33,969 nt of DNA from assembly GCA_900314585.1 (NCBI GenBank), contig OMVV01000010.1, positions 1-33,969 of the forward strand, written 5' to 3'. The notes beneath the pieces are model-generated. The model was not told the origin of the DNA. It searched no databases and worked only from the letters and a program-made list of their open reading frames with translations. This document shows, in pieces, positions 27,533 to 33,969 of the stretch. How positions within the stretch are numbered: the first letter of the stretch is position 1; each line of letters opens with the position of its first letter. The stretch is from an uncultured Erysipelotrichaceae bacterium. GTDB lineage: Bacteria > Bacillota_I > Bacilli_A > RFN20 > CAG-826. Both the position numbers and the translations under genes were made by a program.

Positions 27533-28798
27533 TTATGGAAGAATCTCGTACCAACCAACTCGCGAACTAAAGATATCATATGATATTGTTCCCAAAGACC
27601 CGCTTTTGACAAGAACGTCATTTTGTTCAAAATCACACATGACTTTCTTTGTTTCAAGAATTGTCGCGTCTTCATATTGGACTTGGGCAGAAAACTGGCA
27701 CCAACTATTCGAATACAATTTAAATGTTGCAGTCGCCGTAAATGAATAATAAATTTTCATCGCGCCATAAGTTTCGAGTTCAAACCAGAACTTGATGTCA
27801 GTAACATCCATTTCACAATGGAGCGATGTTGTTGAGTAGTTACCCACGGTTGTAGTTACAGAATGAGTAAAATGCCACGGTACATCCGTCTCGTATATTA
27901 AGCCTATTGCTAAAATGGTGCATTCTGCACTAAGTCCACTAGCTGTATATACTCTTATCTTGGTTTTACCTGCATCAAGAACATTGAAAACTGCTTTAGT
28001 CTCGCCTTCGACGAATTGAATTATGTTTGGATCATCTGTTTCCCACCACGAATACTCAGATGTTGTTGTTGGATAAAGCGAATAATCAAGGCGATAGTTC
28101 TCAGTTCCAACTTGAACGGTTACCTCACTTTTTCGCATATAAATTGACGAATAGGGTTCTTTCACCTCAATTTCGCACGTCGCTTTTGTGCCGTTAGAAG
28201 TTTTTGCTTGGATTTTTGCGTTTCCACTTTGTTTTGCAGTAACTAGTCCTTTTTGATCAACTTCAGCAATGCTTTCATTTGAGCTTGACCATGTTACGTC
28301 ACGATTAATTGCGTTGTCAGGAAGAACAGTACAAGTTAATTGATGTGTAAAGCCAATTCCAATAGATAAGGTTGAATCGCTTAATTCAATTTCGGAAGGA
28401 TAATAATCCTTAATTGAATATTGCGCCGTATAGGTGATGTCGCTATAAACCGCAGATAATTTTGGGGTCCAATCTTTAAAAACATATGAGTATAAGTTAT
28501 CACTTTCTCTTGTTGGTTTTTGCCCATCATATGATGGCATTTCACCTTTTTGAACGTTTTTGTCAACCTCCAAAACTTCGCCATCATAGTTTTTCCAAGT
28601 TACAGTGAATAAATCGAGAACTTGAACAGAACTACTTTGAGATGATGAACTGTGACTAATTGAACTTGATGATGAGGATTGTATTTCTACAACACTTTTT
28701 GCTTTCTTTCCGCCCGACTTCGGCGAACTATTACAGCCTGTGAGCAACAAGGATGGTAAAAACAAAAAGATTAGATGCTTTTTCAAACTTGATTCCAT
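27533..28798 (-). CDS. Surface lipoprotein with InlB-type repeat and BIG2 Ig-like domains
   Basis: 421 aa from the ATG at 28798 (GGAG about 10 nt upstream). The signal peptide ends in lipobox LLTGC (Cys22). A Ser-rich, flexible linker (about 35-55) is followed by a Listeria-Bacteroides/InlB B-repeat-like domain (about 60-125, 'VTWKNYDGEVL...YTAQY'), a BIG2 domain (about 130-210, 'TWSSSNESIAEVDQKGLVTA'), a second Ig-like part and a C-terminal beta-rich region. Such proteins are adhesins or surface-interaction proteins. The promoter spacer is a CT dinucleotide repeat, so expression may vary by slippage. Confidence 0.8.
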   Translation of the reverse strand: MESSLKKHLIFLFLPSLLLTGCNSSPKSGGKKAKSVVEIQSSSSSSISHSSSSQSSSVQVLDLFTVTWKNYDGEVLEVDKNVQKGEMPSYDGQKPTRESDNLYSYVFKDWTPKLSAVYSDITYTAQYSIKDYYPSEIELSDSTLSIGIGFTHQLTCTVLPDNAINRDVTWSSSNESIAEVDQKGLVTAKQSGNAKIQAKTSNGTKATCEIEVKEPYSSIYMRKSEVTVQVGTENYRLDYSLYPTTTSEYSWWETDDPNIIQFVEGETKAVFNVLDAGKTKIRVYTASGLSAECTILAIGLIYETDVPWHFTHSVTTTVGNYSTTSLHCEMDVTDIKFWFELETYGAMKIYYSFTATATFKLYSNSWCQFSAQVQYEDATILETKKVMCDFEQNDVLVKSGSLGTISYDIFSSRVGWYEILP

Positions 28799-28826
28799 AG
28801 TAACAAATCTCCTGATATTAATTTTT

Positions 28827-28855
28827 ATTTTACAGAGAGAGAGAGAGAGATGCAA
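28827..28855 (-). promoter_or_regulatory. Lipoprotein promoter with (CT)n repeat spacer
   Basis: Minus strand: TTGCAT (28855-28850) and TAAAAT (28832-28827) stand 17 bp apart, and nearly the whole spacer is alternating CT (17-nt TC tract, 28850-28834). The -35 is weak. A change of repeat number would shift the spacer by 2 bp steps. Confidence 0.55.
28834..28850. repeat. Dinucleotide GA/TC microsatellite, about 8 units
   Basis: Seventeen bases of strictly alternating A and G on the plus strand, lying in the predicted promoter spacer of the lipoprotein gene. No other dinucleotide tract of this length was seen in the window. Confidence 0.9.
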
Positions 28856-28885
28856 GCACTTACTATGTAAGAGTGCTAACCACGA

Positions 28886-28908
28886 CAAAAAAGAACATCT
28901 GTGATGTT
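28886..28908 (-). terminator. Terminator of the mntA-hepT unit
   Basis: Minus strand: AACATC-ACA-GATGTT followed by C and a T-tract, about 30 nt behind the hepT stop. Confidence 0.7.
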
Positions 28909-28938
28909 ATGATTCTTTCTATTCCAGGTTTTTCTTAA

Positions 28939-29274
28939 TTACAAAAGATTTTTGAAGATGATTTCTAAATCATGAAGATCATTTGTTGCGGTTTCATAAA
29001 CAATGAGGAAATCTGTTTTTCCATACTCATGAACAATTCCGTTTCTAAAACCCATGATTTTTCCCCATGGAATGTGGTTGTGTTTTTCTTTGAATTCGGG
29101 AGATACGTTACTTATGTTCTCGATAAGCTGAACGAATCTGAACATTACTGCGTCAATTAATTCTCCGTCTTTTAAGAATTGTTCGTAACTTGTTCCTTCA
29201 ACATATTTTTCAATTGCTTCAATATTTTCGATTATCTTTCTAGCATAATAGTGATCATCTTTAATGTTATCCAT
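28939..29274 (-). CDS. hepT: HepT-like toxin (DUF86) of an MNT-HEPN pair
   Basis: 111 aa, all-helical. The HEPN RNase motif Rx4HxY appears as RNGIVHEY (about residues 92-99). In the MntA-HepT type VII toxin-antitoxin system HepT is the RNase toxin and is silenced when MntA transfers AMP to the Tyr of this motif. The gene overlaps the preceding MNT gene by 8 nt, the usual arrangement, and is followed by a terminator. Also preserved is 'FRFVQLIENI', typical of the family. Confidence 0.88.
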   Translation of the reverse strand: MDNIKDDHYYARKIIENIEAIEKYVEGTSYEQFLKDGELIDAVMFRFVQLIENISNVSPEFKEKHNHIPWGKIMGFRNGIVHEYGKTDFLIVYETATNDLHDLEIIFKNLL

Positions 29275-29746
29275 AAATTTTCACGCCATCTTTCATTATC
29301 TCGCTTACTAAATCGAGATTATCCTTCAGGTTTGAAAACCTCACTAAATCGATCCTTTTATGAAGGTTTTCTCTTATGGCTTCGGCTAATCCAGCAAACG
29401 CTAAACCTGTAAGCTTAGTGGCAATACATAAATCAACATCACTACTTTCTTTTTGATATCCTTTAGCATAGCTACCGAACAAATAGCAGAATTCGATTTG
29501 GTCTTTGTATTCTTTATCAAATAGTTCTTCAAGAATGGTCTTTATTTGTTCAATGCTTAATAATCCTTTGGTTTCAGTGATTTCACATTCTTCGATGATT
29601 GTTCTGATCATCATTGTTCTTTTAAAATCATCGCCATACTCATTATCCTTTTCATAACGAACATATGTTCTTAAAGGCATATTAAGAAGTGAAGCGGCTT
29701 TAGCTTGGGTTAAACCATATTTGGTTCTAACATCAAATAGATTCAT
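29267..29746 (-). CDS. mntA: MntA-like nucleotidyltransferase antitoxin with N-terminal XRE HTH
   Basis: 159 aa from the ATG at 29746, chosen for the GGAG 6 nt upstream (alternative ATG at 29773 without SD). Residues about 5-35 form an XRE-type HTH (YGLTQAKAASLLNMPLRTYVRYE). Residues about 75-155 are a minimal nucleotidyltransferase with GSYAKGYQKESSDVDL (GSx10DxD), which would AMPylate and so neutralise HepT. The HTH fusion suggests direct autoregulation; a 15-bp sequence occurs twice at 32-bp spacing just upstream. Overlaps hepT by 8 nt. Confidence 0.87.
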   Translation of the reverse strand: MNLFDVRTKYGLTQAKAASLLNMPLRTYVRYEKDNEYGDDFKRTMMIRTIIEECEITETKGLLSIEQIKTILEELFDKEYKDQIEFCYLFGSYAKGYQKESSDVDLCIATKLTGLAFAGLAEAIRENLHKRIDLVRFSNLKDNLDLVSEIMKDGVKIYG

Positions 29747-29770
29747 ATTTTTCTCCGCTTCAATAATAGA

Positions 29771-29817
29771 CATTTTGTCATATTGTTTCAATACTTATAT
29801 GCCATTTTGTCATATTG
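29771..29817. promoter_or_regulatory. Direct-repeat operator upstream of mntA
   Basis: CATTTTGTCATATTG occurs at 29771-29785 and again at 29803-29817, 32 bp apart (about three helix turns, same face of DNA). The first copy overlaps the alternative ATG of mntA. Likely binding site of the MntA HTH. Confidence 0.6.
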
Positions 29818-33611: not shown

Positions 33612-33969
33612 TTACCACGGGGTTGGCACGCCATTGACATAGTGCCAATAATTATGTGATGCATCGGTCGGTTCGTCAGCAGAGAAGAACAAAATATTAT
33701 TCAACAATGTTTCGTTGTTTGCTGCGATATAAATGCTATTTAACGAAGATCCGCAGTAAAAAATACTAGATAATTGGGAGCAATTATGGAAAGCATATCC
33801 ACCAATCGAAGTTACGCTGTCTGGAATTACAATTGAAGTTAACGATGAACAACTTCTAAATGCATATCCACCAATCGAAGTGACGCTGTCTGGAATTACA
33901 ATTGAAGTTAACGATGAACAACCATTAAAAGCACTGCCGCCAATTGATGTTATACCACTTGGGATAGTG
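33612..33969 (-). CDS. BspA-like leucine-rich repeat (LRR_5) protein, C-terminal part (cut by window edge)
   Basis: The last about 118 residues. At least three LRR_5 repeats of 23 residues read [19 protein letters not shown], with GCSSL/SCSSL between them, then a degenerate last repeat and a tail ending [10 protein letters not shown]. This is the Treponema/BspA type of surface LRR found in host-associated bacteria. The N-terminus and signal lie outside the window. Two repeats are almost identical at DNA level. The stop lies 5 nt before the FRG gene start. Confidence 0.88.
33793..33922. repeat. Near-identical 69-bp tandem repeat inside the LRR gene
   Basis: 33793-33853 and 33862-33922 agree in 60 of 61 bases, including synonymous positions, at a 69-bp (23-codon) period. 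This is a recent in-frame repeat duplication or homogenisation. Confidence 0.85.

Follow-up and report, generated by a model that had tools for sequence, protein, structure and literature searches.

A CIRCE-type operator and repeat-filled spacers in a probable family of phase-variable promoters for surface proteins of gut Bacilli

What does a CT repeat do between the -35 and -10 boxes of a surface lipoprotein gene, and is the arrangement peculiar to that gene? The question is raised by a promoter in the stretch of 33,969 nucleotides that we analysed, contig OMVV01000010.1 of an uncultured Erysipelotrichaceae bacterium (hereafter, the window). An earlier note on this DNA had guessed, from the one locus, that slippage of the repeat makes the promoter phase-variable. 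The features on which the argument turns all lie on the minus strand:

27533..28798, minus strand: lipoprotein gene (421 aa) encoding a signal peptide with the lipobox LLTGC, a Ser-rich linker and a Big_2 Ig-like domain
28827..28832, minus strand: -10 hexamer TAAAAT, seen in the sequence; an identical box occurs at many sites of the promoter family
28833..28849, minus strand: spacer of 17 nt, CT units plus one final G, the predicted slippage site, from the sequence, TRF and the in-register lengths of the family
28850..28855, minus strand: -35 hexamer TTGCAT, seen in the sequence; unrelated heat-shock promoters, with -10 boxes 16-18 nt from the corresponding TTG, support its position
28853..28879, minus strand: CIRCE-type operator TTAGCACTC-N9-AAGTGCTTG, a 27-bp inverted repeat with 3 mismatches to CIRCE; 0 such matches are expected by chance in the window

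The spacing of 17 bp between TTGCAT and TAAAAT that had been read at this locus is exact to the base, and the estimate of about eight TC units agrees with TRF, which reports an AG array at 28834-28850 (period 2, 8.5 copies, 100% match). Under a first-order model, 16-nt tracts of this kind are expected about 5e-6 times per window-sized sequence, and the longest dinucleotide run is 17 nt in the window versus 12 nt across 60 simulated windows. A chance repeat is ruled out by this simulation, by the rarity of operator matches and by the association of operator and repeat in the family relative to controls. An invertible promoter was also considered and rejected, since the region 28400-29300 holds no inverted pair of at least 12 nt and so no flanking inverted repeats. 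TTGCAT matches the sigma-70 consensus at only 3/6 positions, so the promoter is absent from the list of a mechanical promoter scan; our call is supported by comparison with the family and with unrelated heat-shock promoters.

The ATG of the lipoprotein gene lies 28 nt downstream of the -10 box and is preceded by AGGAG. The gene had been described as encoding a lipoprotein with InlB- and Ig-like domains; the lipobox and the Ig-like domain (Big_2, 59.5 bits in Pfam) stand, while Pfam makes no call for an InlB-type repeat. PF09479 is present in promoter-linked proteins of relatives. For the window's own lipoprotein, relatives gave domain-level matches only, and no ortholog of its promoter was found in them. 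The genes directly upstream, which run the same way, form an MntA-HepT-like toxin-antitoxin pair (28939-29791), a Polbeta nucleotidyltransferase with an HTH followed by a HepT-like HEPN protein. Because these MNT-HEPN genes are co-directional with the lipoprotein gene and no terminator was found between them and it, read-through could blunt switching. The start of the MntA-like gene carries an imperfect 30-nt tandem repeat with TATGACATTTTGTCATATTG palindromes (29759-29817), possibly an autoregulatory operator of that gene. Elsewhere in the window, a 69-nt tandem repeat with copies 98% alike (33790-33944) is apparently coding and may give a protein of variable length.

The earlier reading of spacer slippage is supported but was incomplete, as it overlooked both the CIRCE operator that supplies the -35 box and the genome-wide and family-wide set to which the promoter belongs. 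The operator adjoins the promoter upstream, and its final three bases, TTG, are the start of the -35. Compared with CIRCE, TTAGCACTC-N9-GAGTGCTAA, it matches at 15/18 arm positions with exact spacing, and two of the three differences are set by the -35. In the whole genome, only seven CIRCE-like sites match as well as this: hrcA and a Clp ATPase gene are each preceded by two of them, and the other three are at repeat promoters. The hrcA gene is single-copy and found in 22/24 genomes of the genus, the two without it being incomplete; with only one HrcA per genome, a second, specialised HrcA is ruled out. HrcA also occurs in related genomes without repeat promoters, so co-occurrence is no proof of control.

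The same operator variant precedes groES, groEL, clpB and other Clp ATPase genes in unrelated bacteria. At 80 sites with the same operator in unrelated taxa, -10 boxes (at least 5/6 matches) were observed 16-18 nt from the TTG in 24 cases versus about 1.7 expected. Because the chaperone-gene operators elsewhere share both the variant and the -10 distance, we read the operator as CIRCE and the TTG as the -35. HrcA would then bind this operator and control the window promoter, and the lipoprotein gene would be inducible by heat or stress. By eye, the 9-nt centre of the operator seemed likely to hold a conserved hairpin, but pairing there did not exceed that of controls (0.86 vs 1.25 pairs).

The window's genome contains two further repeat promoters:

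C19: TTGACT, CT tract, 15-bp spacer, before a lipoprotein gene
C18: TTGCTT, CTT tract, 14-bp spacer, before a gene for a secreted protein

Across the taxonomic family, we found about 80 similar operator-repeat promoters. We used the operator alone to search 24 genus and 224 family genomes and obtained 59 distinct exact operator sites, 56 of which have a repeat of at least 12 nt within the next 28 nt; at the same operator in other taxa, the longest adjoining repeat is 9 nt, and none of 79 control sites has one of at least 12 nt. When the repeats alone were searched for, 13/15 (CT)7 tracts and 12/12 (CTT)5 tracts of the genus proved to lie in such promoters, and the two (CT)7 exceptions have the right half-operator. 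The units seen in the family are CT, CTT, AAG, one AC and two T tracts. The promoter with the AC tract (L245) has the layout of the other family sites. At L091 (G023:C45), before a zinc-ribbon protein, a T14 homopolymer spacer stands in place of the CT/CTT tract. The combination of operator and repeat is confined to the family, mainly to two genera, and we found none in 55 genomes from the order's other families. The named records with such promoters are rumen and horse-gut assemblies of Bacilli or 'Erysipelotrichaceae'. Carriage by phages was rejected, the operator-plus-repeat pattern being unmatched in 2.9 million viral contigs.

A further element was observed beside the operator. In 43/77 family sites, versus about 1.9 expected and 3/80 controls, a near-perfect palindrome abuts the operator upstream (L045, L087, L150, L157, L187 and L226, among others). 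It has a stem of 6-10 and a loop usually of 3, often AC-NNN-GT, and accompanies nearly all AAG promoters, most CTT promoters and a minority of CT promoters; the window site is without it. The palindromes comprise 42 different sequences, with the structure conserved and the sequence changing.

If these tracts act by altering spacer length, their lengths should keep to a register, and this is the pattern found. We surveyed spacer lengths at 80 sites, allowing relaxed operator matches. At the CTT sites, spacers of 8, 11, 14, 17, 20 or 23 bp separate the -35 and -10 boxes, all of them congruent with 17 bp (33/33). Spacers at CT sites are odd, and so congruent with 17 bp, in 32/33 cases. Seven of the eight AAG sites are congruent as well, and the eighth has another possible -10 box at 17 bp. 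In total, 72/74 spacers at CT, CTT and AAG sites are congruent with 17 bp, so that 17 bp is attainable by gain or loss of whole units. The sites have about 40 different junction sequences, and the shared register may in part come from common descent of the cassette.

Orthologous promoters also differ in unit number between species: with flanks 84-100% alike, their tracts differ by units, giving spacers of 14/17/20 bp (L062, L045, L060), 11/13/19 bp (L049, L291, L067) and 11/17 bp (L149, L289). The closest comparison is between contigs CADCPC010000018.1 and CACXKR010000020.1, which align for about 7.5 kb with 0 mismatches, the sole difference being one CTT unit in a family promoter (tract 21 vs 24 nt; spacer 20 vs 23 bp). 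They are filed under genomes of two genera, so one is probably mis-binned; the DNA is still that of one lineage. The one-unit difference could be an assembly error, but a tract of 21-24 nt is far below usual read length. Natural whole-unit variation is thus found for the promoter family, the window's own tract being known at one length, with no second allele in the data searched. What had been a guess from one locus now draws support from about 80 homologous promoters with spacers of 17 bp plus or minus whole units, from the orthologs that differ in unit number and from the contig pair that is identical over 7.5 kb save for one unit.

The genes behind these promoters mostly encode surface proteins. 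Among distinct downstream proteins, 55/71 have an N-terminal hydrophobic (signal-like) stretch, and many targets are either lipoproteins or large proteins anchored in the membrane at their C-terminus. Lipoproteins, some of which have collagen-like or BspA-type repeats, often follow CT promoters. CTT and AAG promoters mostly precede secreted proteins of 800-1300 aa that start with MNKLFTKI and end in a membrane anchor and an RKRKE tail. The leaders before these MNKLFTKI-type genes are 300-400 nt long (e.g. L243, L260, L193); an RNA element was considered for the long leaders of the CTT class, and Rfam found no family there. For a minority of targets, zinc-ribbon and other non-exported proteins that look cytoplasmic, a role at the surface is not obvious. 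We also surveyed the repair background. A MutS-family search found one MutS-domain protein in 19/20 genomes, both of those scored being MutS2, and saw no mismatch-repair MutS (MutS1), so the mismatch repair that would curb slippage seems absent. Its absence would permit slippage, and the same background is found in relatives without repeat promoters.

We conclude, with a probability of about 0.8, that these promoters form a phase-variable, multi-locus family driving genes for surface proteins, each member also under HrcA/CIRCE control. Phase variation by slippage is well supported for the family by comparison of sequences; control by HrcA is inferred from sequence. At the window promoter, whose spacer is 17 bp in the assembly, replication slippage would add or remove CT units between the two boxes and shift the spacer among 15, 17 and 19 bp, turning the gene off or on, with 17 bp the predicted ON length. 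Spacer length would in this way set transcription. Because the -35 is embedded in the CIRCE operator, the cell's single HrcA is expected to cover it, and ON-length promoters would be kept low until stress frees HrcA. It is fairly probable, then, that in a family of gut Bacilli a slippage-switched surface proteome encoded at many loci has been brought into the HrcA heat-shock regulon, with repeat length picking the genes that each cell can express and HrcA setting the timing.

The promoters could be phase-variable and still escape HrcA, if the inverted repeat is read by another regulator that adopted a CIRCE-like sequence or is a relic of a heat-shock promoter. This would fit the presence of HrcA both with and without repeat promoters, the drift of the right arm to AAGTGCTTG and the retention of only half of the operator at a few sites. 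However, the 9-9-9 spacing and the arms are conserved at dozens of sites despite unrelated flanks and genes, where a relic would decay, and the same operator variant serves chaperone genes elsewhere; we regard this alternative as unlikely, though it deserves some weight.

In the two remaining alternatives, spacing is not the main switch. In one, the transcript begins further upstream, within the operator or ahead of it as in dnaK-type CIRCE, and the CT/CTT tract belongs to the leader, affecting mRNA stability or translation. A weak alternative promoter, TTGTCG-N17-TAGTAA, does overlap the operator, and TTGCAT is a poor match to the consensus. Yet nearly every site has a -10 box behind the tract, and the spacing keeps to the 17-bp register, which a leader would not need; in unrelated taxa, moreover, the same TTG stands 16-18 nt from a -10. 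We regard the leader explanation as very improbable. We give slightly less credence still to an action of the polypurine-polypyrimidine tracts through DNA structure (triplex) or protein binding, with spacing secondary. Such a mode of action has been proposed for the GAA tract of Mycoplasma gallisepticum vlhA, and each of the CT, CTT, AAG and T tracts is a purine/pyrimidine mirror repeat; but the AC tract of L245 leaves the layout unchanged, and the in-register lengths are what spacing predicts. Moreover, the vlhA type has its repeat upstream of the core promoter, whereas the tract here lies inside the spacer.

Slippage-switched promoters with HrcA control, our preferred reading, combine features of several known systems. 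The comparison with Haemophilus hif made in the earlier note is apt: in the H. influenzae hifA/hifB (TA)9-11 and Neisseria porA poly-G promoters, spacer slippage alters the expression of surface structures (PMC2651432, PMC3899988), and there too a simple repeat lies between -35 and -10. Those are single loci with no shared operator, whereas here many loci share one operator and carry at least four units (CT, CTT, AAG, AC). Surface lipoproteins are likewise switched by insertions and deletions in the promoter spacer in Mycoplasma hyorhinis vlp, M. arthritidis maa2 and M. mycoides vmm (PMC2268961), in small-genome, low-GC bacteria; we found no CIRCE operator forming the -35 described for these, and the units here are mainly di- and trinucleotides. 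Slippage and a repressor meet at one promoter in Neisseria meningitidis nadA, through TAAA repeats and NadR (PMC3899988), but the nadA repeat shifts the spacing between repressor sites, while the repeat here is in the core promoter spacer. With the HrcA/CIRCE regulon, the promoters share the same operator, with its 9-bp arms, 9-bp centre and a right arm overlapping the -35 as at groES and clpB promoters elsewhere; the targets there are chaperones, and here they are mostly surface proteins with repeat spacers. In the open-access literature, we found no paper that joins CIRCE/HrcA to phase variation by repeats. Promoter-spacer slippage is already known; our search of that literature gave no example of a set of many loci, with several repeat units, that shares a heat-shock operator.

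Most knowledge of spacer-slippage promoters comes from pathogens and concerns single genes. In these commensal gut Bacilli, one cassette of operator and repeat stands in front of dozens of surface genes that are unrelated to one another, and its constant part is the bacterial heat-shock operator. The signature of a CIRCE ending in TTG and then a repeat makes phase-variable genes, and their ON or OFF state, readable in metagenomes. If our reading is true, the surface proteins brought out by stress would be a random set, diversified in advance, and a conserved stress regulon would be gating stochastic surface diversity.
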